In this document: one piece after another, positions 42,295-57,128 of the stretch
Layout: each line of letters begins with the position of its first letter
How positions within the stretch are numbered: the first letter of the stretch is position 1
Assembly: GCF_900177345.1 (NCBI RefSeq)
Contig: NZ_FWZT01000023.1
Coordinates: 62,001-126,000 of the forward strand
Direction of reading: 5' to 3'
Source of the DNA: Pseudobacteriovorax antillogorgiicola
GTDB taxonomy: Bacteria; Bdellovibrionota_B; Oligoflexia; Oligoflexales; Oligoflexaceae
DNA length: 64,000 nucleotides
Position numbers and translations under genes: made by a program
Notes under the pieces: model-generated
The model's input: only the letters and a program-made list of their open reading frames with translations
What the model was told of the DNA's origin: nothing
Databases searched by the model: none

Positions 42295-43803
42295 TCAACG
42301 CTCCCCTGTGATGTCATAGAGAGCTTCCTGCAAGCTCTCTATTTCTGCCCGCCCGGGCTGTAAAGCGATCTCGATATCGAAGCGCTCCACCAGCAATTGG
42401 AAAAGTTGCTCTTCCTCGTTCATGAATCGATCAATAATATCTTGGCGAGTCGTAACGAAGATCTTCTTCGATTTGGTACGGAGAGCAAATCTTTCTATAT
42501 CCCGAGCCAAATCAAGCACCGCTGATTCAGTACTAAGGCAACGACCACTACCACCACAGTAATGACACTCAACAGTAAGTGCCCGTTCCAGCGACTCCCG
42601 CGTTCGTTTGCGAGTCATCTGCACAAGGCCTAATTCGTTAATGGCCAGTACATTGGTACGCGACTTATCCACTTTTAGAGCTTCTTCGAGCCGCTCATTC
42701 ACCTGCTGCTGATCTTCATAAAGTTCCATATCAATGAAATCGATAATAATGATACCGCCTAGGTTCCGTACCCTCAGCTGGTGAACGATTTCGTCGACGG
42801 ACTCCAGATTGGTCTTTAAGATCGTTTCTCGGGCGTTATGGGAGCCAACATATTTACCGGTATTCACATCGAACGATGTGAGTGCCTCGGTTTGATCGAT
42901 TACAAGATAGCCCCCTGAGGGTAGCCAAACCTTACGAGACAATGCTTTGGCAATATCAATCTCTAAGCTGTAGTGATCAAAAATTGGGGTTTCTGACTCG
43001 TGGAGCTTCAGTTTGTCATCGGCCCCTGGAATCACCCCCTGAAGGAAGTGACTCAATTGTGAATGCGCCTGGCTATCATCAACCACAATTTCAGACACAT
43101 CCTCAGAGTAGAGATCACGCGTTGTCTTCAAGATAATGTCAGGTTCTTGATATAGGAGCGCTGGTGCGCCTCGCCTTCCCATAAGATCTTTAACGTTGTT
43201 CCAGACACGAAGCAAATAGTCCAAGTCTTTTTTGAGGTTTTCAGGTTGCGCCTCTGCCGCTGCCGTTCTAACAATGAGCCCCATATTTTCTGGTCTGATG
43301 GCTTCAACATCCCGCTCAAGTCGATCTCGCAGCTCAGAATCTTCGATCCGCCGCGAAATCCCCACATTGTCAAAGTCAGGCATCAGAACCAGATACCGGC
43401 CTGGAATGGTTATCAGCATGGTGACCCGAGGACCTTTGGTCCCCAGGGGCTCCTTCGCCACCTGAACCATGATCTCATCCCCCTCCTTCAAAATTTTTTC
43501 GATGGGGGTCTTGTTTGAGTTGCTTCTTGGATCAACATCCTTGCCATTGTTGAGCTTGAGATTATTGAGGTACTCTTCATCGACAACATCGCCTCCATAT
43601 AGGAAAGCAGATCGATCTGAACCGATATTGACAAAGGCTGACTGCATACCCGGCAGCACACGACTCACCTTCGCCTTGTAGATGTTGCCCACCATTCCTA
43701 GACTTGATTGTCGCTCAACGTATAGCTCAGCGGCTCGATCCTGCTCCATTAAAGCAATTCGAGTTTCAGAGACGTTGACATTGATCACGAGCTTTTTATC
43801 CAC
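42295..43803 (-). CDS. rng: ribonuclease E/G family protein (RNase G type)
   Basis: Endoribonuclease for rRNA maturation and mRNA decay. The S1 domain is near the N-terminus (GNIYKAKVSRVLPGMQSAFVNIG). The catalytic Asp residues are in SFDVNTGKYVG and IIIDFIDM. The zinc-link Cys pair is in CHYCGGSGR. The length of 502 residues and the lack of a long C-terminal scaffold make it RNase G-like. The start is GTG after AAGGA, overlapping the end of waaA by eight bases. Confidence 0.94.
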   Translation of the reverse strand: MDKKLVINVNVSETRIALMEQDRAAELYVERQSSLGMVGNIYKAKVSRVLPGMQSAFVNIGSDRSAFLYGGDVVDEEYLNNLKLNNGKDVDPRSNSNKTPIEKILKEGDEIMVQVAKEPLGTKGPRVTMLITIPGRYLVLMPDFDNVGISRRIEDSELRDRLERDVEAIRPENMGLIVRTAAAEAQPENLKKDLDYLLRVWNNVKDLMGRRGAPALLYQEPDIILKTTRDLYSEDVSEIVVDDSQAHSQLSHFLQGVIPGADDKLKLHESETPIFDHYSLEIDIAKALSRKVWLPSGGYLVIDQTEALTSFDVNTGKYVGSHNARETILKTNLESVDEIVHQLRVRNLGGIIIIDFIDMELYEDQQQVNERLEEALKVDKSRTNVLAINELGLVQMTRKRTRESLERALTVECHYCGGSGRCLSTESAVLDLARDIERFALRTKSKKIFVTTRQDIIDRFMNEEEQLFQLLVERFDIEIALQPGRAEIESLQEALYDITGER

Positions 43804-45085
43804 TTATTTTCGTCCTTTTTTCAATTTCGTCTTTGATGCGGTCACTCGCTCCAGTCATTCTGTTTACATGTTCCACTAGCTGTTCGAAGCGATCACCGAC
43901 ATCAATCGAGAGAGACTGCCACCAGTCAGTCAGTTCCTTAGAATTTGTAACTACTTTGGCAAGTTGTTCGCTGACAAGAGCTTCAGCCTCCTTACTGGTA
44001 TGATACAGAGGTCCGAAACAAAGATACAGGCCTCGTACAGCAGGTTCGAGTACATTATGTACACGATGATGCATGGCTCCACCTACCATGGCTAGCTCGG
44101 CGCAACCATATAGCTCCGGCAGCACCCCGATCACATCGACAAGAATACCATCATGATGTGAGGCCAGTTGATCCAATTGGGTAAATTTGCAGAGCTGGAT
44201 ATCACAAGCTTTGGCCTGAGACTCAACCCACGCAAGCATGTCTGACGATATATCATGTGGGGCCACAATAAGCCGCCATTGTTGGGTTTTCCCACATTTT
44301 TTAAAGCTATCAAACCCCAGCTGCACATCCTTATGCCAAGCACTGCCTAGAATAAAGCAATTTCGTCTTGGCCAGCTCTGGTTGAGGCGTCCTTGAATGT
44401 CACTCAACTTGGCTTGTCGTTCTTCGGCTCGCTCTCGGACCCGATCGTACTTAGTATCACCTGTCACCACAATCTGCTCTCTGCTGGCGCCTAAGGTTTC
44501 TAAGAAGAAGTCCTGATCCCGAGATCCCACCACAAAAATTCTATCAATCCCTGCAATCAATCGCCGCTTAACCAGTCGAACCAAACGATTGCGACTGACT
44601 CTGGGACTTTCCACACCATTAACCAGGTATACAGGACCGTAGCTCTTGGCTTGATAGAGGAAGTTCGGCCACAATTCGTAGCGGACGACAATGGTGAACT
44701 GCGGCTCGATAGCCTTCAAGAGCAAGCGCCAGGCAAAGTAATCATCCCAAGGAGCCTTACAAAAGAGACGCGACTCTCCTTGACTCTTAGCAAATGTGAC
44801 ACCACTTTCCGAAAAAAATATCAAGACAGGCAAGAGGTCTGGATGATCCGCCTCGAAACGCTTGACTAAGGGTAGAGCCTGCTCGTATTCACCAGCAGAG
44901 CTGGCGAATACTAGGAAGGTTCGACGCCCGTGACACTGTTCCCTGAGTACCTCCCTCTCAGATTTAGATAAAAAGCGCCCCAAACACTGGGCCCGCAACG
45001 AAGCTACCCGCACTCCGAGCCAGGATATCAGCCTGCCAAGAGGTGTCATTACGCATGAGTATAGAAATATGAGAAGTGGTTCCAT
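43796..45085 (-). CDS. waaA: 3-deoxy-D-manno-octulosonic acid (Kdo) transferase
   Basis: Adds Kdo to lipid A precursor at the inner membrane. An N-terminal hydrophobic helix anchors it. SAGEYEQALPLVKRF holds the catalytic Glu region. VVRYELWPNFL, GDTKYDRV, LVDVIGVLPELYGCAELAMVGG and HNVLEPA are typical of GT30. The length of 429 residues is normal. It implies an LPS-bearing outer membrane. Confidence 0.94.
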   Translation of the reverse strand: MEPLLIFLYSCVMTPLGRLISWLGVRVASLRAQCLGRFLSKSEREVLREQCHGRRTFLVFASSAGEYEQALPLVKRFEADHPDLLPVLIFFSESGVTFAKSQGESRLFCKAPWDDYFAWRLLLKAIEPQFTIVVRYELWPNFLYQAKSYGPVYLVNGVESPRVSRNRLVRLVKRRLIAGIDRIFVVGSRDQDFFLETLGASREQIVVTGDTKYDRVRERAEERQAKLSDIQGRLNQSWPRRNCFILGSAWHKDVQLGFDSFKKCGKTQQWRLIVAPHDISSDMLAWVESQAKACDIQLCKFTQLDQLASHHDGILVDVIGVLPELYGCAELAMVGGAMHHRVHNVLEPAVRGLYLCFGPLYHTSKEAEALVSEQLAKVVTNSKELTDWWQSLSIDVGDRFEQLVEHVNRMTGASDRIKDEIEKRTKISG

Positions 45086-45106
45086 AACTTACAACCAGTG
45101 ATAGGG

Positions 45107-46261
45107 CTATTTCGGCAATTGTGAATCTTGAAGATTCGGCTGAATCACATCATAGACGTGAGACGCGATATCTGCGGCAGGGAGAAGGCTAAAGCACAAC
45201 TTATCACCAAAGCGGCAATCAGCTTTGCCATGTTTCGAGCACGGCCTGCACCCCAATGGGGCGGAAAATGCACGGCTACTAGCTTGCCAAGGAGGAAAAC
45301 CAAACGCCTCGACAGTAGGTCCAAACAAGACTGCACTAGGAACGTCCAAGGCCTCACCGATATGACACAAAGAGGAGTCATTACTCAAGATGATCGAGCA
45401 CTCCTTGATGGCAAGGGCTGACTCCCATAAGGATAGCTTACCAGCCAGGTTTAAAACAGGGGCCTTCCAACGCAGCTTATCCACAATCGTCAACGCCCGA
45501 CCGCGATCATCCTCATTGCCAACAAAGAGCAAACCTAAGGACTTCTCAGCAAGCCCATCGGACTCCAAATGATGGCGTAGGTAATTCAAGATATCGACAA
45601 ACAAGTCCTCTGGTGCCCGTTTTGCCTCGTGAGACGCTCCTGGCGCTATAGCAATCCAATGGCCAAACTTCAGTTCCTTTTGCCAGGGTCTTTGGCCATC
45701 GTCATGAGATGTGGGCAACTTGGGACGAGCTTGGTAGGACTTGATTCCATCGTACAACTCCACAGGCAGATGGGACCGCAACGCGAGTCGGAGAGCTGTA
45801 CTCATCATGTCATACTGATATTTTTCAGCCTTTTGGTAATCTGTAGGCAAGGAGTTCCGACGGCCACGGAGCCGGGCTGCCACAACCATTTGCCCGCGTT
45901 TAAGGCTCTTTTTATGGCAGTTAAATATCTGAATACCATAAGTTTTCTGGATAGATCGACAAATCGCACGAGAGCGAATACTCATCTGTAAGTCTACGAC
46001 TAAGTGAACTCCCTTGACGGCTTCTACCACCTCTTCCACATAGTTTGATTGCTCCGGGTTGACCTCCACAGTCTTCACTCCGGGATAGGCTGATGCGATC
46101 AGCTGCAAGGATGGGCTCCGGCCAATCCAAGTCAATTCTACTGGTGCGGACAGAGAGCCCAATAGGTCGATACAGGCGGTCGCTAACACCACATCACCAA
46201 TGCTTGTGCTTCGAAAAATCGCTACTTTTACTGCTGGCGGAGTTGGTGATGGATTTAACAA
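45107..46261 (-). CDS. glycosyltransferase family 9 protein (heptosyltransferase-like)
   Basis: It has the GT9 start FRSTSIGDVVLATACIDLL, and the second Rossmann fold holds IAIAPGASHEAKRAP and SNDSSLCHIGEALDVPSAVLFGPT, where LPS heptosyltransferases bind ADP-heptose. C-terminal cysteines (GCRPCSKHGKADC) are also typical. The start is TTG with GAGGAG eight bases upstream. It lies 21 bases before waaA on the same strand, consistent with LPS core assembly; the exact sugar is not certain. Confidence 0.9.
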   Translation of the reverse strand: MLNPSPTPPAVKVAIFRSTSIGDVVLATACIDLLGSLSAPVELTWIGRSPSLQLIASAYPGVKTVEVNPEQSNYVEEVVEAVKGVHLVVDLQMSIRSRAICRSIQKTYGIQIFNCHKKSLKRGQMVVAARLRGRRNSLPTDYQKAEKYQYDMMSTALRLALRSHLPVELYDGIKSYQARPKLPTSHDDGQRPWQKELKFGHWIAIAPGASHEAKRAPEDLFVDILNYLRHHLESDGLAEKSLGLLFVGNEDDRGRALTIVDKLRWKAPVLNLAGKLSLWESALAIKECSIILSNDSSLCHIGEALDVPSAVLFGPTVEAFGFPPWQASSRAFSAPLGCRPCSKHGKADCRFGDKLCFSLLPAADIASHVYDVIQPNLQDSQLPK

Positions 46262-46456: not shown

Positions 46457-47461
46457 TTGGCTACAAAAAATAACCAAAAACCAAATCGTCAGCGGTTTCT
46501 CAACATCATCTACTTTGTAGACTCTAACAAAACCAAGACGTTCAAGTTCAGTCTGAACAAGAGCTACATTGTCATGGGCGCATTAATCTTCACAGTACTG
46601 TGGTCATTGATCAGCACCATACTACTCATTAACAGCTATGACAGATCATCACTTCAAAGCCAGAGGGTCCGCTCGCTTCTTGCAACTATATTCAACTACC
46701 AAACGCGCTACGACAAAGTATATGAGAAAACCTATCCAAACGATGGCAGCCTTCCTCGCCCCCTTCCCCAATTGAGCGACTATGACAAGAAACAAGCCCT
46801 AGCTGATAGCGATAGTAACTCATCGGACAGTTCTGATCAGGACGTGAGCGACAACGATGCTTCCATGGCTCTCGCTGCCAAAACCACAATGCAAGATGAC
46901 GATAACGACATCGGCGATGAAGAGATCGATGAACTGGATACCGAGGAATCTGCCATGGAGGTCTCTGACAGTAGCGATGACACAGCTACTGATGGAAACG
47001 ATAAGCCTCCTGTAAAGTTAGACAAGTATCGACTTACCCAGAGAGGACAAAAACTCTCTCTCGAATTTGCAATCAAAAACTTGGTTCGTCCTCAAAAAGC
47101 CAACGGCTACGTTATTGGATTTGCCAAATTTATTGGGATTGACGGTACAACAACCACAGTTTCGTCACCAGGTAACATCAAAGAAGGACAGAAAATCAAC
47201 AAATGGAAGCTGCCCCGGAGCAATCGCTTCAGCATCCGCTACTACACGAAAAAAAATCTAGTCTTTGATCTGCCTGACAAAAGAGGCGGAACCTTTGAAT
47301 CCATCAAAATAATTGTCGGTGGAAAGAACAACGAACCCTTAGAATTCATGTATAATATTAAAGGTAGCGAAGGTGCATTCGCACCAGCCCTTGGAACTAT
47401 ACCGAACAATAGCAATGATTCTTCATCTGGAAATTCTGAAACGCCGTCTCAGGGGACTTAG
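46457..47461 (+). CDS. single-pass membrane protein, function unknown
   Basis: The basic N-terminus (about 1-37) is followed by one membrane segment (about 38-60, VMGALIFTVLWSLISTILLIN), a linker rich in Asp and Ser (about 105-185) and a C-terminal domain (about 190-310) with probable beta structure. The topology is most likely cytoplasmic N-terminus and periplasmic C-terminus. The start appears to be TTG; no ATG lies near enough. The end overlaps the SH3-protein gene by about 46 bases, so it opens a tightly packed gene series. Confidence 0.72.
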   Translation: MATKNNQKPNRQRFLNIIYFVDSNKTKTFKFSLNKSYIVMGALIFTVLWSLISTILLINSYDRSSLQSQRVRSLLATIFNYQTRYDKVYEKTYPNDGSLPRPLPQLSDYDKKQALADSDSNSSDSSDQDVSDNDASMALAAKTTMQDDDNDIGDEEIDELDTEESAMEVSDSSDDTATDGNDKPPVKLDKYRLTQRGQKLSLEFAIKNLVRPQKANGYVIGFAKFIGIDGTTTTVSSPGNIKEGQKINKWKLPRSNRFSIRYYTKKNLVFDLPDKRGGTFESIKIIVGGKNNEPLEFMYNIKGSEGAFAPALGTIPNNSNDSSSGNSETPSQGT

Positions 47462-48023
47462 CCTTGTCTTCCCGGTCTTTCTTTGCCATTGCACATCGAC
47501 TCCAAAAACAACTCCACCTGTCGCTTCCAAAACGATCCCTTTCGACAGTAGCGACTGGCTCTCAGAAAATATTCCTGAAACTATTCCTTTCGACACGAAA
47601 ATCTTACCTGTTTTCCAAGTCAGCCGCCGCTTTGCAGAACTCCGCCAAGGCCCAGGTTTAGAGTTTCCCTTGCTTGATAAACCACTCAAGCAAGGTGAGC
47701 TAGCAATCCGACTCTATCGATTTCAATATTGGTATAAAGTCGTCTCCCCGGAGTCTGGTGCCAAGGGTTGGGTTCATAGAAAAACTCTTTCCAAAGCAAA
47801 AGGTGTAAAAAAACACATCAAACTTTCGTCTCAAGCCCTTCCAAACGTTTTCGTTAGCAAGCCGGGGGCCGCACTCTATGACTACCAATCTAAGAAAAAA
47901 ATCGATGTATCTTTACCAGCTGGCTATCGGTTTAAAGCTCTTAACCATAAAGGACCGTTCGTACTTATATATTTACCCAAAACCCATTCTGTGGCTTGGA
48001 TCAAACGGGGGCATATTCGATGA
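47415..48023 (+). CDS. exported SH3-domain protein, possible lipoprotein
   Basis: Residues around 80-130 form a bacterial SH3-like domain (AELRQGPGLEFPLLDKPL, then YWYKVVSPESGAKGWVHR), usual in proteins that bind cell-wall material. The hydrophobic N-terminus ends with LCHC, a poor lipobox, so lipidation is uncertain. The start is the ATG at 47415 inside the previous gene; the frame goes further upstream but that part looks like shadow. The stop overlaps the next ATG (ATGA). Confidence 0.78.
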   Translation: MILHLEILKRRLRGLSLVFPVFLCHCTSTPKTTPPVASKTIPFDSSDWLSENIPETIPFDTKILPVFQVSRRFAELRQGPGLEFPLLDKPLKQGELAIRLYRFQYWYKVVSPESGAKGWVHRKTLSKAKGVKKHIKLSSQALPNVFVSKPGAALYDYQSKKKIDVSLPAGYRFKALNHKGPFVLIYLPKTHSVAWIKRGHIR

Positions 48024-48421
48024 AGTTTCTCATAACAATCGGTTTTACATTAATTCTCAGCTCGTGTCGCACAACGATCTCGGGTTATGTCGTAAGCCCT
48101 GAAGGCAAACCTATCAAAGCTGAACGAGGCAAGGTAAATGTGTCGCGATTGGATCAAAAAGGTTTTTCTGAAATTGTGGACTTTGGTAGCGATGGCTTTT
48201 TTGAGACTCAAGAGGAGATTCAGCCTGGCCAATATCTCATCGAGCCTCTGATTCCCGGCTACCAATCGAACTCCTTAACCGTTGATATCACCGAGGATAG
48301 GCAGGTAGAGATTCAGGCAGTCGCTCTTCCCCCTAAGCGTTCAAAGGCCATCGAGGCCTACAACGGCATCACCGTTGATCAAGGATCTGGCGGAGCCATT
48401 ATCAATCCCCCTAGGCTTTGA
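48020..48421 (+). CDS. small lipoprotein with carboxypeptidase-regulatory-like fold
   Basis: The lipobox is LSSC (Cys16). The mature part, about 118 residues, starts with ISGYVVSPEGKPIKAERGKV, which recalls CarboxypepD_reg-like beta domains used as spacers in surface proteins. The ATG overlaps the previous stop. It ends 21 bases before the large lipoprotein gene. Confidence 0.78.
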   Translation: MKFLITIGFTLILSSCRTTISGYVVSPEGKPIKAERGKVNVSRLDQKGFSEIVDFGSDGFFETQEEIQPGQYLIEPLIPGYQSNSLTVDITEDRQVEIQAVALPPKRSKAIEAYNGITVDQGSGGAIINPPRL

Positions 48422-48442
48422 ACTTGTATATGAGGACGCACC

Positions 48443-51382
48443 ATGACGTATAAATCCATTTATTCCCTGACAATACTGATCCTAATCAGTTCATGTAAGA
48501 AAACATCAGTCCCCATTAACGTCACCATTAGGGCTGTTAACGAGCGTAAAAAACCGATTACCAATGCCCAAGTATATGTAAACAAATCCTTTGAAGGCCG
48601 CAGCAATTCCCAAGGATATTTGGTCTTTCAAAAAGAATTCGAACCTGGTGAACGAGTTTTCTTCGAAGTTCGCAAAGAAAGTAAAAACCTCTATTACGCT
48701 CCTTACTACGAAAATCTGGTTCTATCGGAAGATAAAAAAGATCTCAGCATCAAAGCCATTCTTTATTCGGTACCTAAGCCAGGGATTGAGAAATCAGATG
48801 AAGACTCATCTGAACCTCTCTCTTCTGAAGACAATCCATCTACTCAAGAAGATATTTCTGACGAGAACCTAGTTGCGACCGATCCAGAAAGCTCGCTCCA
48901 AGTTACTGACAGGCCTGAAAATCAGGAGAAATCGTCAGATCTCGCTAGTGAGCAAACTATTGAAAGTCTAGAGAAACAAGACCCTAAGAGGGAATCCCCC
49001 GAATTAAGCATCGCTACCCCAGTCATAGCAAATGAAGAGGCTGGTTCTGAGAAAAAGGCTCTGCCTGACACTGAGATTCTAGCTCCAGCATCAAACTTAG
49101 CAACCACAAGCCCTCCCGTGCTTACCTTCTATGTTAGAGGCAAAGGTGAACCAGTTTCACAGGCTCATATCTTCTATGGCCTCAAAAAACGCGGCCAACT
49201 CAAGGAGGCTTGCATCACCAATAAAATGGGGCGCTGCCAGCTACGTGGCGGGTTTGAACCTGGGGTTCAATACTCGTACCTCGTTCGCAAACGAGACTAT
49301 ATTAGCTCTCTTGGTGAGACGACTTTCGACAACAACGGTAAAATTCACCGTGATTTGAAGCCAGGCCATAGTATTGATGTTTTTGCTCTCACAAACCACT
49401 ATAGTTATCGACGCGGTCTAACTAAGGTCACTATCACTATTGACAAGAAAAAAGTTGGTGAAACCGATGAGTTTGGCTTCTTTTCAACAACCTATCGTGG
49501 CAAACGAGGAGATTTAATCGAAATTGGCCTTAAGACTCGTCAGCACCTCCCTCAAGACTTTGAAACAGACTATATTGTGGGTGGCAACGTTTCCCTCGTA
49601 AAATACTTTAGCCCGATAAGCCCGGAACCAGTTCGCATAGCAACTATGCCAGCCCAGATTGCTGGACGACTGCAAGGCAAGACTCTATCAACGTTCACAG
49701 GTAATCTTGATCAACATCTCAAGTCGTCTTTAAAACGCCATTTCTTCAACTCAGCCTCATTCGCCGCGGTAAATAACGAACTGATGCTAAAAAAAACCGA
49801 TACAAGTAAAATGCTACGTAAGATTCGAGGAGGTTGGAATGACGATGAAGCAAAGTCAGAAATAGATGCAGTACTGCTACCAACTGTAGTTGTTCATAGC
49901 CCGATGACTCTCGAATTATCACTTATCGATAGCTCAGGAACTGTACTTGCCGCGGGCAAAGAAAGTTTTGACAGCTTCAGTGATCGCAAGGCAATCCAAA
50001 AATCTGTTGAAATGCTGAGTAAAAAGATTCTACGACGTTTCCCATTTGAAGGTAGTATTACCGATGAGTCCGAAGGATTATTTACTATCAACCTCGGTTT
50101 TGGCGAAGGGCACTCGGTTAAACCGGGAGACAAATTTGATGTCTATGGTCTCCAGTCCGACCTAAAAGGCCAGAAGAAGCGTCATGCCCGTATCGGTAGC
50201 CTTGAAGCGACACAAGTTCGAGAATATAGCAGTCGCGCCAAAGTCTTGCATACCGAAGCACGGTCCATCATCGATATTGGTGATCAAGTGGTTTTTCGAA
50301 GGCATCAAGGGGAATCTGGAAACAAAATGACCTTCGCCGTTACCGATCCTGATCAAAATCGCGACCTTTCTCAAGCTAATATCTATTTCCAAGGCGAGTG
50401 GATCGGAGCAACCGATGAAGACGGCCGCCTTCTCAGCAGCAATCACAAAACAGGACGAGGATTGCTAAAGGTCATCAAGCATGGTTATGAAACCTTTCAG
50501 AAAGAAACCAAACTGGGGCGCACAGGCAAAGTTGAGATCCCTTTGAAGCGGGTGAGCGCATATCTTCGCATCGACACCGAACCTCAAAACTTAAGCGTGT
50601 TTATCGATAAGAAGTTTGTTGGAAAAACTCCCTTTGAGAAACCTGTGGCCGTACCCAGCGGCTTCGTCAAGCTCGAAATACTAGGAGAAGGAGGGCTCAA
50701 AAACTTCAAACAGGTTCTTGAGCTTGAAGAAGGCACGCTCGACCTTACAGGTGATCGAAAAATCACCATGGAGAAGGACTTTAGAAGTAAGGCAACCCAG
50801 CATGTGAACAGCGGTAGATTTCAGGAGGCCGTGCAACTTCTTGAAGAGGTTCCCCCACAACACTCTGACTATCTTCATGCCCAGCATCAGGCGGGCGTGA
50901 TCTATATGACCCTACTCAATCAAGCAGCCAAAGCCGCTGCTGCCTTTCATCGCGTCACAAACCACCCAGAAGTAAAGTCTTATCGAGACAAGCGCTTCAT
51001 CGGAAGCCACATCAATGAAGGAGTATCACTCTATCTAACAGGACAAAGCCTCCTCAAGGAGGGCAACGAAGACGCTGCTGCTCCACACTTTCGCAAAGCC
51101 ATCGAGGTTCTAACCCAGGCTGAACCTCATATTCGCTTTATCAAGAAGGTCGACTACCAACAAGCATTCGACAATCTGTTCTACTATACTGCTATCAGTC
51201 ACCAAGAACTTTGGTCTCTTACCCAGGAAACTCAGCATTTACAAGGCGCAGAAACCCACTGGCGACAACTACTCGCCAACCGTCAACCTGAAGAGAGCAA
51301 AACCCCTATGATCAAGAATGCCAATGTCTATCTAAAACAGCTTGAGGTCGCTCTCAACAGAACTAAGAGACAAAACCTATGA
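48443..51382 (+). CDS. large multidomain lipoprotein (Ig-like, CsgG/FlgT-like, PEGA, TPR)
   Basis: 979 residues with a lipobox ISSC (Cys18). In order I see an Ig-like beta domain (about 22-110), a Ser/Glu/Asp-rich linker (115-215), two more Ig-like domains (about 225-400), a region that resembles CsgG/LpoB-like folds (about 400-540), a FlgT_C-like part (about 545-625, INLGFGEGHSVKPGDKFDVYG), another Ig-like domain (about 630-700), a PEGA domain (about 705-770, IDTEPQNLSVFIDKKFVGKTPF) and TPR-like helices to the end. Domain limits and the CsgG/FlgT comparison are judged by eye. It probably sits on the outer membrane as a scaffold. It overlaps the next gene by four bases. Confidence 0.8.
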   Translation: MTYKSIYSLTILILISSCKKTSVPINVTIRAVNERKKPITNAQVYVNKSFEGRSNSQGYLVFQKEFEPGERVFFEVRKESKNLYYAPYYENLVLSEDKKDLSIKAILYSVPKPGIEKSDEDSSEPLSSEDNPSTQEDISDENLVATDPESSLQVTDRPENQEKSSDLASEQTIESLEKQDPKRESPELSIATPVIANEEAGSEKKALPDTEILAPASNLATTSPPVLTFYVRGKGEPVSQAHIFYGLKKRGQLKEACITNKMGRCQLRGGFEPGVQYSYLVRKRDYISSLGETTFDNNGKIHRDLKPGHSIDVFALTNHYSYRRGLTKVTITIDKKKVGETDEFGFFSTTYRGKRGDLIEIGLKTRQHLPQDFETDYIVGGNVSLVKYFSPISPEPVRIATMPAQIAGRLQGKTLSTFTGNLDQHLKSSLKRHFFNSASFAAVNNELMLKKTDTSKMLRKIRGGWNDDEAKSEIDAVLLPTVVVHSPMTLELSLIDSSGTVLAAGKESFDSFSDRKAIQKSVEMLSKKILRRFPFEGSITDESEGLFTINLGFGEGHSVKPGDKFDVYGLQSDLKGQKKRHARIGSLEATQVREYSSRAKVLHTEARSIIDIGDQVVFRRHQGESGNKMTFAVTDPDQNRDLSQANIYFQGEWIGATDEDGRLLSSNHKTGRGLLKVIKHGYETFQKETKLGRTGKVEIPLKRVSAYLRIDTEPQNLSVFIDKKFVGKTPFEKPVAVPSGFVKLEILGEGGLKNFKQVLELEEGTLDLTGDRKITMEKDFRSKATQHVNSGRFQEAVQLLEEVPPQHSDYLHAQHQAGVIYMTLLNQAAKAAAAFHRVTNHPEVKSYRDKRFIGSHINEGVSLYLTGQSLLKEGNEDAAAPHFRKAIEVLTQAEPHIRFIKKVDYQQAFDNLFYYTAISHQELWSLTQETQHLQGAETHWRQLLANRQPEESKTPMIKNANVYLKQLEVALNRTKRQNL

Positions 51383-52704
51383 GTCGATGCTTAGCCATCT
51401 TTGTGGCAATAGCGGGATGGGGACTTTCATCTTGCTCCAGCTTGCCTGACAATTGGTTCGCAGAAAAAGCCTTCGAAGCAAAGGACGGCTCCTATTTCCC
51501 CGATTTTTTGCTCCAATTTTTCCCAAGGAGTGATTCTTTTCAAAAGCGTTTTCCAACAATATCTCAGGCAAGGCGTGGTATCCGACTAATCCAGGTAAAA
51601 CCTCTCGTTACAGAAAAAAATAGACAAAATGAGTCAAACCTGAGTTGGTCTCGCAATGGGCAATATCTTAGCTATGAAACAAGCAATGATCGGCACCGAT
51701 CGATCTATATTCGTGAACTTACTGGACGATTTCATCAGAATCTCACCGTCCAGAGAAAAAGACAGAGATCGTTTCTTGATGGAATCATTGCATCTCGCAT
51801 CCAATCCTACAACTCTGGACTTACCTGGTCACCCACCGAGCAGCAGTATGCCTTCATGTCCAATGGCGGAGTGGGAGAGTACAATATCTATGTGGGCTCT
51901 GTGGAGAATAGTCCCGAAGTTGTGGCTCAAAGCCCAAGCAAGGACGGCTATGCAACCTGGGGCCCATTTCAAGACGAAATTGCGTTTGTAAGTTCTCGTT
52001 CTGGTAATGGAGACATCTACCTCTTGCAGCTTAAAGATCAGAATGTGCAACGAATCAGCGATAGCCCAAACACCGAACTATTTCCGGAATGGCTTCCAAA
52101 GGGCAAGGGCATCGTATACACGAGCGGCCCATCAAGCTCTCATCAAATCGTAGTCAGACGCCGTGACCAAAAAGGTTGGGGACGCACCCAAATGCTGACC
52201 CAATGGCCGAACGATAACTTAAGACCCAAGGTATCACCCTCAGGAGAGTGGGTCGCGTTCTATGGTAGCCAAAACAGCCACTGGAATATCTACGTTCTAC
52301 CACTAGGTGGTGAGACTAGTCACGAAACGAGCATGAATCGCTATGTAATAGCAGAAGACGTAGTCGTAGACCTCAATACTGGGCCAGCTTGGTCCCCTGA
52401 TAGCTCTAAGATTTTCTTTGTCAAGCGAGACCCAAGCCGATTCAATCCAATTTATGCCTACGATTTAAGGGTCGGCAAGGCCTATCACATCAATACCAAA
52501 ACTAAGATGAATCGCGACATGATGATGTCATCTCTTGGGGTGTTAAGTTTTCGAGCTCAGGTAGGGGCCTGGGATCGCGTTTATGTAGCTCTCACAAATC
52601 TAGGCCATCAAATCCAAGGCCGACGCAGATTAGCTAGTATTAGGAGCAGAAGCAAACACATTGTCCATTCTCACCGCATTAGCCATGAAAGGGTGAATCT
52701 GTGA
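51379..52704 (+). CDS. TolB-like beta-propeller lipoprotein
   Basis: The lipobox is LSSC (Cys19). The protein carries six WD40-like/PD40 blades: repeats such as LTWSPTEQQYAFMSNGG, ATWGPFQDEIAFVSSRSGNGDIYL and PAWSPDSSKIFFVKRD. TolB itself has no lipobox and lies with tolQRA and pal; here none of these is near. The propeller probably binds a partner in the periplasm. It overlaps genes on both sides (ATGA before, GTGA after). Confidence 0.85.
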   Translation: MSRCLAIFVAIAGWGLSSCSSLPDNWFAEKAFEAKDGSYFPDFLLQFFPRSDSFQKRFPTISQARRGIRLIQVKPLVTEKNRQNESNLSWSRNGQYLSYETSNDRHRSIYIRELTGRFHQNLTVQRKRQRSFLDGIIASRIQSYNSGLTWSPTEQQYAFMSNGGVGEYNIYVGSVENSPEVVAQSPSKDGYATWGPFQDEIAFVSSRSGNGDIYLLQLKDQNVQRISDSPNTELFPEWLPKGKGIVYTSGPSSSHQIVVRRRDQKGWGRTQMLTQWPNDNLRPKVSPSGEWVAFYGSQNSHWNIYVLPLGGETSHETSMNRYVIAEDVVVDLNTGPAWSPDSSKIFFVKRDPSRFNPIYAYDLRVGKAYHINTKTKMNRDMMMSSLGVLSFRAQVGAWDRVYVALTNLGHQIQGRRRLASIRSRSKHIVHSHRISHERVNL

Positions 52705-54287
52705 AATCCTATATTTTGAGCCTCGGACTCATTGCGCTATCTTCAACATCTCTCGGTGTAGAATCGACTCGCATGGTCTATGGGGAGAACACCAAACTAC
52801 AAGCCTTCGATCCCTACACCAGCCACGAATCAGCTGGTCACCGGCTGGCTGACCTCTTATTCGATTCGTTAGTAACAACAGGCCCTGGAGGAACTTACGA
52901 ACCTCACCTAGCCAAGTCTTGGACCATTGAGAATGATGGAAGCGCAATTCATGTTGTTTTAAAAGAAAAGGTTTTTTGGCATAAAGAAGGCAAGGAACCT
53001 CTAAAGCCTCTTAACGCCGCAGATATTGCCACTACATTACGCTTAATCAAGAGCCCCAACAGCGAAATCCCCAACGCAGAGCGATTTCAGGTGCTCAAAA
53101 GAGTTGAGGTCCTTTCCAATCACCGGGTGAGAATTCACTTCCACCGCGCCTTAGCTCAACCCCTTAAGTTTCTTATGTTTAAGGTCCTCCCCAACCACAA
53201 GTTAGAAAGCACCAAAAGCCTCACTAGGGATCACTCTTTCAACCGCACGCCAATAGGCACAGGGCCTTTCGCCTTTGTTAAGAGCACACCTCAGGGAGAA
53301 ATCCAGCTAAAAAGAAACCCTTTCTACTTCAAAGAGCTCCCGAGCATTACAGAAGTTATTATGAAGCCCTTTGTGGACAACAGTATCATGACGCAATCCT
53401 TGCTCTACAGTTCTTTGGATCTTGTCACCTATATCAGCCCTAGAGATGTCAAGGAAGTCGGTGGCGATCGTAACCTTGATCTAGTTCCCTACGATGCGCA
53501 AAATTTCTCGTTTGTTGCGATGAACATGAACCATCCCCAGTTAAAAGATAAGCGCATCCGCCAAGCCATCAACTATAGTATCGATCGCAGAGAAATGCTC
53601 GACGCATTCTTTCAAGGCAAGGGACACCTCATTACGGGGCCCTTCGCCCCTACGTCTTGGGCATATAACTTGAACGTACCTGGATATAGATTTAACCAAG
53701 ATCGAGCCCGTGAGCTGCTCAAGCAAGCTGGTTTTGAGGATCGTGATAACAATGGTTTTGTGGAAGACACAAAAGGACAGGAAATTCAGCTGACCTTTGC
53801 TGTTCCATTGGCTGGGGAAAGCGAGATGACCAAGCGCATTGTGCTGGCCTATCAAAACTACTTGCAGGTAATCGGGATCAAAGTAGAACTCAAATTTTTG
53901 GAGTGGACAGTATGGAAAGCCAAAGTCCTAGGTGAGCATGACTTCGACCTTACCATAGCCTCCTGGGACTTTGATGATTCATCCAACATCACCAGTCTCT
54001 TTCATAGCCAAAGTGCACGAGCCTGGGGCAACAACTTCGTGTCGTTCCAAAATCCAAGAGTGGATAGCATGCTTGCGGAGGCCAGCAGCACCAATGACTT
54101 TGACAAACGCCAAGCCATCTATAAAAAGCTTCACAGCATTATATCTGAAGAATCACCTTACACCTTTCTCTGGACTTTAAAGCATCATGCTGGGCACCAA
54201 CGAAAGCTGCTTGGAGTTCGGATCGAGCCGTTTTCATTCTTTAAATATGTAGCCCAGTGGCAGGTGAGCAACCATGGACAAAAATAA
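52701..54287 (+). CDS. solute-binding protein of peptide/nickel ABC family (SBP_bac_5), orphan
   Basis: A signal peptide (about 1-20) leads a 528-residue protein with the SBP_bac_5 pattern: FDPYTSHESAGHRLADLLFDSLVTTG, RTPIGTGPFAFVKSTPQGEIQLKRNPFYF, and DKRIRQAINYSIDRREMLDAFFQGKG. Such proteins bind oligopeptides or similar ligands for import. No permease or ATPase genes are close, so it may feed a distant transporter or act as a ligand sensor within this gene series. The start is GTG overlapping the previous stop. Confidence 0.9.
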   Translation: MKSYILSLGLIALSSTSLGVESTRMVYGENTKLQAFDPYTSHESAGHRLADLLFDSLVTTGPGGTYEPHLAKSWTIENDGSAIHVVLKEKVFWHKEGKEPLKPLNAADIATTLRLIKSPNSEIPNAERFQVLKRVEVLSNHRVRIHFHRALAQPLKFLMFKVLPNHKLESTKSLTRDHSFNRTPIGTGPFAFVKSTPQGEIQLKRNPFYFKELPSITEVIMKPFVDNSIMTQSLLYSSLDLVTYISPRDVKEVGGDRNLDLVPYDAQNFSFVAMNMNHPQLKDKRIRQAINYSIDRREMLDAFFQGKGHLITGPFAPTSWAYNLNVPGYRFNQDRARELLKQAGFEDRDNNGFVEDTKGQEIQLTFAVPLAGESEMTKRIVLAYQNYLQVIGIKVELKFLEWTVWKAKVLGEHDFDLTIASWDFDDSSNITSLFHSQSARAWGNNFVSFQNPRVDSMLAEASSTNDFDKRQAIYKKLHSIISEESPYTFLWTLKHHAGHQRKLLGVRIEPFSFFKYVAQWQVSNHGQK

Positions 54288-55170
54288 GGGTAAAGAACAA
54301 AAATCGGCAAGCCCTGAGGAAAAAAAGCAAAGTAAGATCGAGGACTACCTTACCGGCCCTCGTCGCAAACGGAAAAACTATGTAATCTTTGCTCTAGGTG
54401 ACAACTTCGATATGGACTTGGCTCAAGCTATGGAGCAGTTCGTTAAGAAAACCTATAGCACCTTATCCACTTCCATGCCCCAGAGCCCCCAAGAGCTATC
54501 TCGCCAATTCGGAAGGAATATCTCCCTGCTCGTGATTGATGATGAGTTCGATGACATCCATGTGGTTCTTGGGCTGGTGAAAGCTCTCAAAGAGAAGCGT
54601 CGCAACGAGTTGATCCCCGTTCTATTCCTAACTCGAAACGCTCCCGAGTTGGTCAACCTTTATCACAAAGAACTTCTACTTTACCATGAGACGGACGAAT
54701 ACATCGTCTACACCGGCATGGCCCGAACGCGAATTTTCAACCGTATCAAAACTGGTGTTGAGGATCAGAACCGCCGCCGTAGTCGCCGCTACAATGTGTT
54801 TATTCCAGTCTCTTTTTTCCTGCTTTCAAAAGATCTTATGATCGAAGGGCACATCATCGACCTCAGTCTCCATGGGGCCGTATTGGAGTCAGATGCTGAA
54901 ATCATTTTCCGAGTCGGTGATCAGGTGAAGCTATCCATTCCAGTCAGCGACCATCTGGACCACCACCACGGCGACTTTATAAAGGTATCAGCGAAGGTAA
55001 GACGGGTATTCATATCGGGCACAAAGGTCTCCGTATCCTTTGAATACGTGACTGATAACCAGAACCACCTGCTCACACAGTTTCTCACTAGTGTGGTGGG
55101 TCGGCAGCTCAATCGCCAAGCCCTGCGGGTACGCAGCGCTCTTGCCGCCCAACACAAGCACGAGACCTGA
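54274..55170 (+). CDS. PilZ-domain protein with degenerate receiver-like N-terminus
   Basis: The C-terminal PilZ domain (about 165-285) has both c-di-GMP motifs: the Arg-rich RRRSRR at 167-172 and Asp196-x-Ser198-x2-Gly201 (DLSLHG). The N-terminal part (35-160) looks like a response-regulator fold, with LLVIDDEFDD near a beta strand and PVLFLTRN later, but phospho-acceptor spacing is unclear, so it may be a pseudo-receiver. It is cytoplasmic. It overlaps the solute-binding gene by 14 bases and stands 77 bases before a histidine kinase gene, suggesting it links c-di-GMP to this envelope gene series. Confidence 0.85.
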   Translation: MDKNKGKEQKSASPEEKKQSKIEDYLTGPRRKRKNYVIFALGDNFDMDLAQAMEQFVKKTYSTLSTSMPQSPQELSRQFGRNISLLVIDDEFDDIHVVLGLVKALKEKRRNELIPVLFLTRNAPELVNLYHKELLLYHETDEYIVYTGMARTRIFNRIKTGVEDQNRRRSRRYNVFIPVSFFLLSKDLMIEGHIIDLSLHGAVLESDAEIIFRVGDQVKLSIPVSDHLDHHHGDFIKVSAKVRRVFISGTKVSVSFEYVTDNQNHLLTQFLTSVVGRQLNRQALRVRSALAAQHKHET

Positions 55171-55247
55171 GCTTGAACATTTTTGTCGTATCAGCTAAAA
55201 GGACGACAGCCTATCGGCTTCATTAACGCCATAGTGACGAGGTCCTT

Positions 55248-56249
55248 ATGCTGGGCGGATTTAAAAAGAATGCGATTTCCATACTCAAGCGCTTGACCCA
55301 TCCCATTGTGGTCTTTGTAGCTCTTCAGGTTGTCTGGATCTCCTTTGTAGTGCTTTGGGTTGTATGGTTCTTAAATCAAAAGGAAACACTGGCCCAGCTC
55401 TCAAAGCTCATGGGAACCACTCCAATTACCGGCACCACGGGCATCATGACTTTAGTCATCGGCTGTATTCTGCTAGGGATGATTTTAGTTGGGACAGTGG
55501 TCCTGTTCATTTTCACCCAGGTGCAGGGTAGTCTCTTGCGCCAGCAAAAGTCCTTCGTCTCCAGCGTCACCCATGAACTTCGCTCTCCACTTGCCAGCTT
55601 GCAACTAAGCTTTGAGACCCTACAACGCCCGAATCTTCCTGATAGAATCCAGACTAAGGTCATGGGAATGGTAGAGCGGGACCTAGAGCGCCTGACCCAG
55701 CTCGTGGACCGGATTCTATTATCAGCACGCCTTGACCGCGGCATATTAGACTACACAACCCAATTGGAGACGTTCCACCTTAAAGAAGCCATTCTCAAGT
55801 GCGTCGATCGAGCAGCCCATATGGATCGCCACCTCAAAAACCGGCTTACGATTATCTGCCCGGAACATATGAAAGTTCGAGGCATTCGTCTCGCTTTCAC
55901 CATGATATTTGGCAACTTGCTAGAAAATGCTGTGAAGTACTCTCCCAAAGATTCCTTGATTGAAGTTTGTGCTAAACGTCAGGATCGCGAGTTGTGGCTA
56001 TCTGTAAAAGACCAGGGCTTTGGCCTCAATAAACGCGATCAGAGGAAAGTTTTCCATATGTTCCACCGCACTCCAAGAGCTACAAAAAATGCTGTTCCCG
56101 GCACGGGCTTGGGGCTCTACATCGTGCGCTCTATGGTCCGTGGCCTGGGTGGTCGCATCTGGGTCGAAAGCGAAGGCGTCGGTAAAGGCTCAACATTTTA
56201 TGTCGCTTTTCCTGCAGATGTCGTGATCTCTCGGGACCAAAGCTATTAG
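55248..56249 (+). CDS. membrane sensor histidine kinase
   Basis: Two membrane segments (about 20-42 and 66-90) flank a short loop of about 20 residues, too small for a separate sensor domain, so sensing may be in the membrane or by a partner. The HisKA domain has the phosphorylated His109 (SVTHELRSPLASLQ). The HATPase domain has FGNLLENAVKYSP (N box), VKDQGFGL (G1) and GTGLGLYIVRSMV (G2). GAGG precedes the ATG. The response regulator gene follows 147 bases later. Confidence 0.93.
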   Translation: MLGGFKKNAISILKRLTHPIVVFVALQVVWISFVVLWVVWFLNQKETLAQLSKLMGTTPITGTTGIMTLVIGCILLGMILVGTVVLFIFTQVQGSLLRQQKSFVSSVTHELRSPLASLQLSFETLQRPNLPDRIQTKVMGMVERDLERLTQLVDRILLSARLDRGILDYTTQLETFHLKEAILKCVDRAAHMDRHLKNRLTIICPEHMKVRGIRLAFTMIFGNLLENAVKYSPKDSLIEVCAKRQDRELWLSVKDQGFGLNKRDQRKVFHMFHRTPRATKNAVPGTGLGLYIVRSMVRGLGGRIWVESEGVGKGSTFYVAFPADVVISRDQSY

Positions 56250-56396
56250 CACGCAATTTAATTGCAGACCGCATTAGTCAAAAATATCAGTCCCCCTGGT
56301 AAAACGCCGTAGAAAGGGATTTTCAACCGTGCTAATGAACCAGAACGCCCCGTTTATCGGTCAAAATGTTTAAAAGGGATCAAATAGGAGACAAAG

Positions 56397-57128
56397 ATGA
56401 CCGAAGCAAAGAAAAGAATACTGCTCGTTGAGGACGAGCCCAACCTAGCCTTCAATATTGAGTTCAATCTTCAATCAGAAGGCTATGAGGTGGTGTTAGC
56501 CAGCGACGGTAAGGAAGCCCTAGAATGCTTTCGTAACGAAGGCCCGTTTACCTTAATCATCTTGGACATCATGTTGCCAGAGATTAACGGCTTTGAAGTC
56601 GCCAGCATCATTCGCCAAGAGGATAAGGTCACACAGATTCTCATGCTCACCGCCCGAGCTGCAGAAAAGGATGTGATCCAAGGCCTAGAACGAGGCGCAG
56701 ATGACTACATGACAAAACCATTCAGTTTCAAGGAGCTGCTTCTGCGCATCCGCCGCATGGCAGATCGGAGCGATCTGTTCTCTCCAGGCCAGAAGCCAGC
56801 CAACTCAAAACTATCCTGGGGAGACATCACCTGGGATATGGATAGCCTGGAACTGAATAGTAGCCAAGGGCACCACGTACTGACTGTTTTGGAGGCTAAG
56901 GTTCTCAATGAGTTTGTCCTTAATCCTGAAACCATCCTCACGCGAAAACACCTTCTGAGCAAGGTGTGGGGTGTGAATGGCAATGTTGAGACCCGTACAG
57001 TGGACAACTTTGTCATGCGCCTACGTAAATACATCGAACGCAACCCTTCCAAGCCAGAGTATTTGAAAAGCGTGAGGGGTCGGGGTTATAAATTCTGTGG
57101 AGATGTGAACCCTGAAATTGGAGTCTGA
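56397..57128 (+). CDS. OmpR-family response regulator
   Basis: The receiver domain (about 5-120) has the acidic pair EDE at 12-14, phospho-acceptor Asp57 in LIILDIMLPEINGFE, and the Lys in MTKPF. The C-terminal winged-helix domain (about 145-240) ends in TVDNFVMRLRKYIE and VRGRGYKF, typical of OmpR/PhoB. The likely partner is the kinase immediately upstream. AGGAG stands before the ATG. dapF starts four bases after its stop codon. Confidence 0.95.
   Translation: MTEAKKRILLVEDEPNLAFNIEFNLQSEGYEVVLASDGKEALECFRNEGPFTLIILDIMLPEINGFEVASIIRQEDKVTQILMLTARAAEKDVIQGLERGADDYMTKPFSFKELLLRIRRMADRSDLFSPGQKPANSKLSWGDITWDMDSLELNSSQGHHVLTVLEAKVLNEFVLNPETILTRKHLLSKVWGVNGNVETRTVDNFVMRLRKYIERNPSKPEYLKSVRGRGYKFCGDVNPEIGV

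Follow-up and report, generated by a model that had tools for sequence, protein, structure and literature searches.

The seven genes at positions 46457 to 55170 of the window, the 64,000-nucleotide stretch analysed here (a section of the 7.28-Mb, 68-contig genome of Pseudobacteriovorax antillogorgiicola), probably encode a flagellar motor accessory or regulator that has so far gone unrecognised, judging from their sequences and distribution. The reading that we prefer, and to which we assign a probability of roughly 0.45, is a trans-envelope complex, specific to the Oligoflexales lineage, whose action on the flagellum is mediated by the PilZ protein encoded by the last gene of the cluster, with three of the other genes forming an optional module. 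The flagellar claim is strongest for the PilZ protein, moderate for the unit and weakest for the large lipoprotein D as a component of a ring. The genes are designated A to G in 5′ to 3′ order and are listed here with the adjacent two-component pair:

A, 46457..47461, forward strand: inner-membrane protein with a cytoplasmic beta-hairpin, one transmembrane/coil helix, a disordered linker and a periplasmic Ig-like domain
B, 47415..48023, forward strand: bacterial SH3 protein, a lipoprotein in relatives; variable member
C, 48020..48421, forward strand: small lipoprotein with a weak carboxypeptidase-regulatory-like domain; optional module C-E-F
D, 48443..51382, forward strand: 979-residue lipoprotein with Ig-like, FlgO/FlgT-like core (about 392-628), CarboxypepD_reg-like, PEGA and C-terminal TPR domains
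E, 51379..52704, forward strand: lipoprotein with a TolB-type beta-propeller, without the TolB N-terminal domain; optional module
F, 52701..54287, forward strand: periplasmic family-5 solute-binding protein without a permease; optional module
G, 54274..55170, forward strand: receiver-like domain plus PilZ domain with intact c-di-GMP motif; only in flagellated genomes of the order
Histidine kinase and OmpR-type regulator, 55248..57128, forward strand: unit with dapF-plsC, separate from the cluster

The open reading frames of the seven genes and of the two-component pair are all present as initially annotated, and five of the six junctions within the cluster overlap: A/B by 47 bases (with the start of B set at 47415), B/C and D/E by 4 bases as ATGA, E/F by 4 bases as GTGA and F/G by 14 bases, with a 21-base gap between C and D. 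The near-touching run of genes and the ATGA and GTGA coupling described in the initial annotation are thereby upheld, and the domain contents that it gave for each gene agree with our family scans; its title counted eight genes whereas its text described seven plus two, and it is the run of seven that we confirm. G is followed after 77 bases by the kinase gene, with 147 bases between kinase and regulator and 3 between regulator and dapF. Scans for promoters and terminators gave matches no commoner than chance, and no sigma-28 or sigma-54 promoter upstream of A rose above the shuffled background. The cluster sits outside any flagellar operon.

Comparison of about 33 loci from relatives, each spanning up to 20 kb, showed that the order A-(B)-(C)-D-(E-F)-G is kept in most Oligoflexales families, so that the possibility, raised with the initial annotation, of an order kept in no related genome can be set aside. 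The site is also constant, lying in most families between a divergent GT9-kdtA-rng group and plsC, and the edges of the conserved block are sharp (42295 and 59041). Within its left part (42295-46261), an RNase G/E-like gene, a KdtA-like transferase gene and a heptosyltransferase-family gene make up a conserved divergent group found in nearly every family. Since A and D share only about 20-40% identity with their relatives, and E and F 40-55%, retention of the order is more than chance. The named relatives with an E gene are MAGs of Oligoflexales or of proteobacteria, some of them labelled Pseudobacteriovorax. A, D and G recur most widely, with reduced forms consisting of A-D (families f3 and f6) or B-D-G (two genera of f11), and B varies independently of the other members. 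The earlier proposal of one conserved unit is therefore supported by the kept order, but not as an obligate seven-gene apparatus, because C, E and F are jointly absent from many genomes and B from others.

The connection with motility comes from G. Family scans identify a PilZ domain (1.1e-11); the N-terminal domain is receiver-like, with an invariant aspartate (D90), and the c-di-GMP motif of the PilZ domain is intact, with RxxxR (R168/R172) and D/NxSxxG (D196-S198-G201) conserved or invariant in 28 sequences. Control by c-di-GMP, as suggested at first, is consistent with this motif; what had been overlooked is that G is lost together with the flagellum. Flagellar status was scored by searches for flagellin and FlgI and compared with a search for G across 43 genomes of the order. 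G and flagellin occur together in 33 (two of which, G003 and G010, are incomplete and lack FlgI), eight have neither G nor flagellin nor FlgI (G008, G009, G011, G016, G017, G018, G026 and G038), and two (G006 and G029) have flagellin without G, on contigs that end inside the cluster. Of the 35 flagellated genomes, 33 thus have G, against none of the eight non-flagellated ones, and no genome has G but lacks flagellin. Treating the genomes as independent, though they are related, Fisher's test gives 1e-8 without G006 and G029 and 3e-7 with them. An RpoB tree requires at least four independent flagellar losses, with G lost each time, uncorrected for general genome reduction, and for four co-losses a sign test gives 0.125 and is unable to reach 0.05. 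In one non-flagellated genome (G018), A, D and plsC are still in place and G alone has gone.

Motor regulators of the PilZ type offer the closest parallel for G. Like YcgR and the tetrameric PilZ protein of Campylobacter, a precedent cited in PMC11870540 on complex motors, G has a PilZ domain, here with an intact c-di-GMP motif and found only with flagella. It differs in that its N-terminal domain is receiver-like rather than YcgR_N, the YcgR family being absent from G in Pfam and NCBIfam scans, and in being encoded with envelope lipoproteins.

D provides a second, structural connection. The initial description of an Ig/PEGA/TPR lipoprotein is confirmed (PEGA 1.1e-7, CarboxypepD_reg_2 and TPR), but it missed a core resembling FlgO and FlgT (FlgT_C, 0.006). 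When the AlphaFold model of D (mean pLDDT 80) was compared with the PDB using Foldseek, the top two matches were both FlgT (E-values 8e-10 and 1.6e-9; crystal structure 3w1e and LPHT ring 8z5n), with TM-scores kept low by the many flexible domains of D. A profile of residues 392-628 searched against 177,635 PDB sequences at E ≤ 10 retrieved only FlgT, matching the C part, and FlgO-domain proteins, matching the N part, both weakly (E 0.25-0.44). FlgT_C matches 12 of 21 members of the D family (best 4.7e-7); the D protein of the window scores 17.4-20 bits, under the curated cut-off of 27, and the domain was undetected in D from the flagellated family f2 and genus g10 of f8. Full-length D survives in the flagellum-less family f6 and so does not occur with flagella only; together with the flagellated families in which FlgT_C was undetected, this disfavours a purely structural flagellar role. 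FlgO is a lipoprotein, as D is. With the Vibrio H-ring (FlgO, FlgP and FlgT; H- and T-rings are described in PMC6375700), D shares the FlgT-like fold, FlgT_C in most of its close members and a weak FlgO-domain match, but it is far larger owing to its Ig, PEGA and TPR domains, scores below the Pfam cut-offs, lies distant from the flagellar genes read here and persists in some non-flagellated genomes. The operon around flgI in the same genome (L138), read by eye from N-terminal sequences, contains FlgG-, FlgH-, FlgI-, FlgK- and FlgL-type genes and no look-alike of FlgO, FlgP or FlgT. The cluster thus resembles H-ring proteins and PilZ motor regulators while falling outside FlgO/FlgT, YcgR and TolB by sequence.

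A matched no Pfam or other known family in our scans, and searches of its Ig-like domain against the PDB returned generic beta-sandwiches only. In the structural model, the cytoplasmic beta-hairpin holds the most conserved motif, LNIIYFVDSxKTxT. Two paralogs of A are encoded elsewhere in the genome. The first (L080:377-8826, contig C3) directly follows the gene of a lipoprotein of 2410 residues whose repeats are leucine-rich, of thrombospondin type 3 or propeller-like; the second (L081:6277-9061 and L082:5947-8885) is convergent to two genes, one TraF_2-like and one unknown, a neighbourhood common to the nearest genus. In the sister order f12, the A homologue adjoins, and in several cases overlaps, an L,D-transpeptidase gene (YkuD plus Cds6_C; L086:7423-10229, also L083, L085, L087 and L096) and is followed by a gene for a matrixin-like lipoprotein, an arrangement kept in five genomes. 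The G homologue of f12 is located by HSP90, and with A and G unclustered no function can be deduced from that order. Of the smaller proteins, B contains an SH3_3 domain (3.6e-6) and has an irregular lipobox here (FLCHC) that is normal in relatives, and C has a weak CarboxypepD_reg match (0.0015). Clear lipoboxes in C (LSSC), D (ISSC) and E (LSSC) bear out their assignment as lipoproteins.

A is present in four of the eight non-flagellated genomes, which, together with the full-length D of f6, indicates that A and D either serve some purpose apart from flagella or decay more slowly. This is where the best-surviving alternative enters, namely that A-D forms a complex with a general role at the envelope or surface, in adhesion, gliding or export, under c-di-GMP control, with G lost alongside flagella through a shared motile, surface-attaching lifestyle. 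Such a function would accommodate the persistence of A and D without flagella and the A paralog beside the large LRR/TSP3 lipoprotein, and it has a parallel in the Bdellovibrio gliding operon that opens with the PilZ gene Bd1482 (PMC3271064). We nevertheless consider it somewhat unlikely: GGDEF proteins are kept in eight of eight non-flagellated genomes, so that loss of the flagellum did not take all c-di-GMP signalling with it, and the closest folds to D are flagellar.

E and F raise a different possibility. E contains PD40/DPPIV_N repeats and a TolB-like match (5e-29) confined to the propeller, with 101 bits against a TolB cut-off of 343. With this score and a propeller that lacks the TolB N-terminal domain, E was rejected as TolB. 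Its propeller is of the type found in TolB of the Tol-Pal system, but E is a lipoprotein and lacks Tol partners, no Tol or Pal partner gene having been found in the window region or in the 20-kb loci. F belongs to SBP_bac_5 (4e-71), with AppA as its nearest solved relative, and is, as first annotated, a solute-binding protein without a permease; the cluster contains no Dpp-type permease or ATPase gene. In this it differs from the oligopeptide and dipeptide binding proteins AppA and DppA, as it does in always being paired with E at the cluster. The genome encodes two Dpp-type permeases, each beside another solute-binding protein, and it is possible that F shares a permease in trans. The genome has many such orphan binding proteins of the peptide type, with eleven family-5 matches against the two permeases. 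One could imagine a Tol-like system of envelope maintenance, in which D supplies a TolB-N/FlgT-like domain and E a TolB propeller while F binds murein peptides, so that the outer membrane and cell wall are braced. The resemblance of E to TolB, the SH3 domain of B and the overlap of the sister-order A homologue with an L,D-transpeptidase gene fit that scheme, which we regard as improbable because most genomes of the order lack E yet contain other, weak matches of the TolB type, the cluster is without a Pal, TolA or TolQ/R gene, and the link between G and the flagellum would be left unexplained.

The distribution of E and F points to a modular make-up of the cluster. Exactly 16 genomes contain a strong match to E, in each case at this cluster and together with F, and no genome has C without E and F. 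On either side of splits in families f1, f8, f10 and f11 the three genes are all there or all missing, and the E/F state needs four changes on the RpoB tree and five on the G tree. With D sitting between C and E, the joint gain and loss of C, E and F speaks for a shared role of the three proteins. In the tree of D, the protein of the window falls outside its family, weakly (p-AU 0.08, long branches); given this weak placement, we do not claim transfer of C-D-E-F.

The kinase (HisKA/HATPase) and regulator (Response_reg plus Trans_reg_C), which had been annotated as part of the unit, follow a different pattern. The kinase-regulator-dapF-plsC group moves as its own block, being on the same strand as A-G in f1 and on the opposite strand, convergent, in f7 and in genus g16 of f8, where the pair thus lies outside the A-G transcript. 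We therefore reject membership of the pair in the cluster and read it here as a neighbour of A-G. The kinase itself (55248-56249) has merely a short loop between its two transmembrane helices and so probably lacks a periplasmic sensor domain of its own. Least probable of all is that there is no shared machine and that separate envelope genes are held together by stable gene order near LPS genes, for although the flanks on both sides are conserved too, starts and stops overlap, C, E and F are gained and lost as a set around D on both sides of those family splits, and the kinase-regulator-dapF-plsC block changes orientation while A-G stays intact.

Returning to a complex that acts on the flagellum, the predicted topologies suggest how it might be arranged. 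D is probably an outer-membrane lipoprotein whose FlgO/FlgT-like core may build, decorate or brace an outer-membrane ring or disk, with its Ig and TPR arms reaching into the periplasm, and A would cross the inner membrane. On the cytoplasmic side, G would bind c-di-GMP and couple the A-D envelope complex to the motor, possibly acting through the conserved cytoplasmic hairpin of A. C, E and F would form an optional periplasmic and outer-membrane module that adds periplasmic input, possibly as a peptide sensor. In its fullest form, which we think unlikely, this scheme would give Oligoflexales motors an unrecognised accessory complex running from the outer membrane to the cytoplasm, with an FlgO/FlgT-like lipoprotein ring (D), a new family of inner-membrane linker (A), a c-di-GMP-binding PilZ effector (G) and an optional peptide-sensing C-E-F module that lets an external ligand tune the motor.

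The motor of Bdellovibrio carries a small disk at the outer membrane whose composition is unknown (PMC5758724), and the cluster provides named, testable candidates for such a structure in another little-studied lineage of the predatory type. It also provides a PilZ effector whose gene sits among those of envelope lipoproteins, and an inner-membrane family, A, without a Pfam entry. Should the optional module prove to be a peptide sensor, these bacteria would join sensing of the exterior to motor control in an unusual way.
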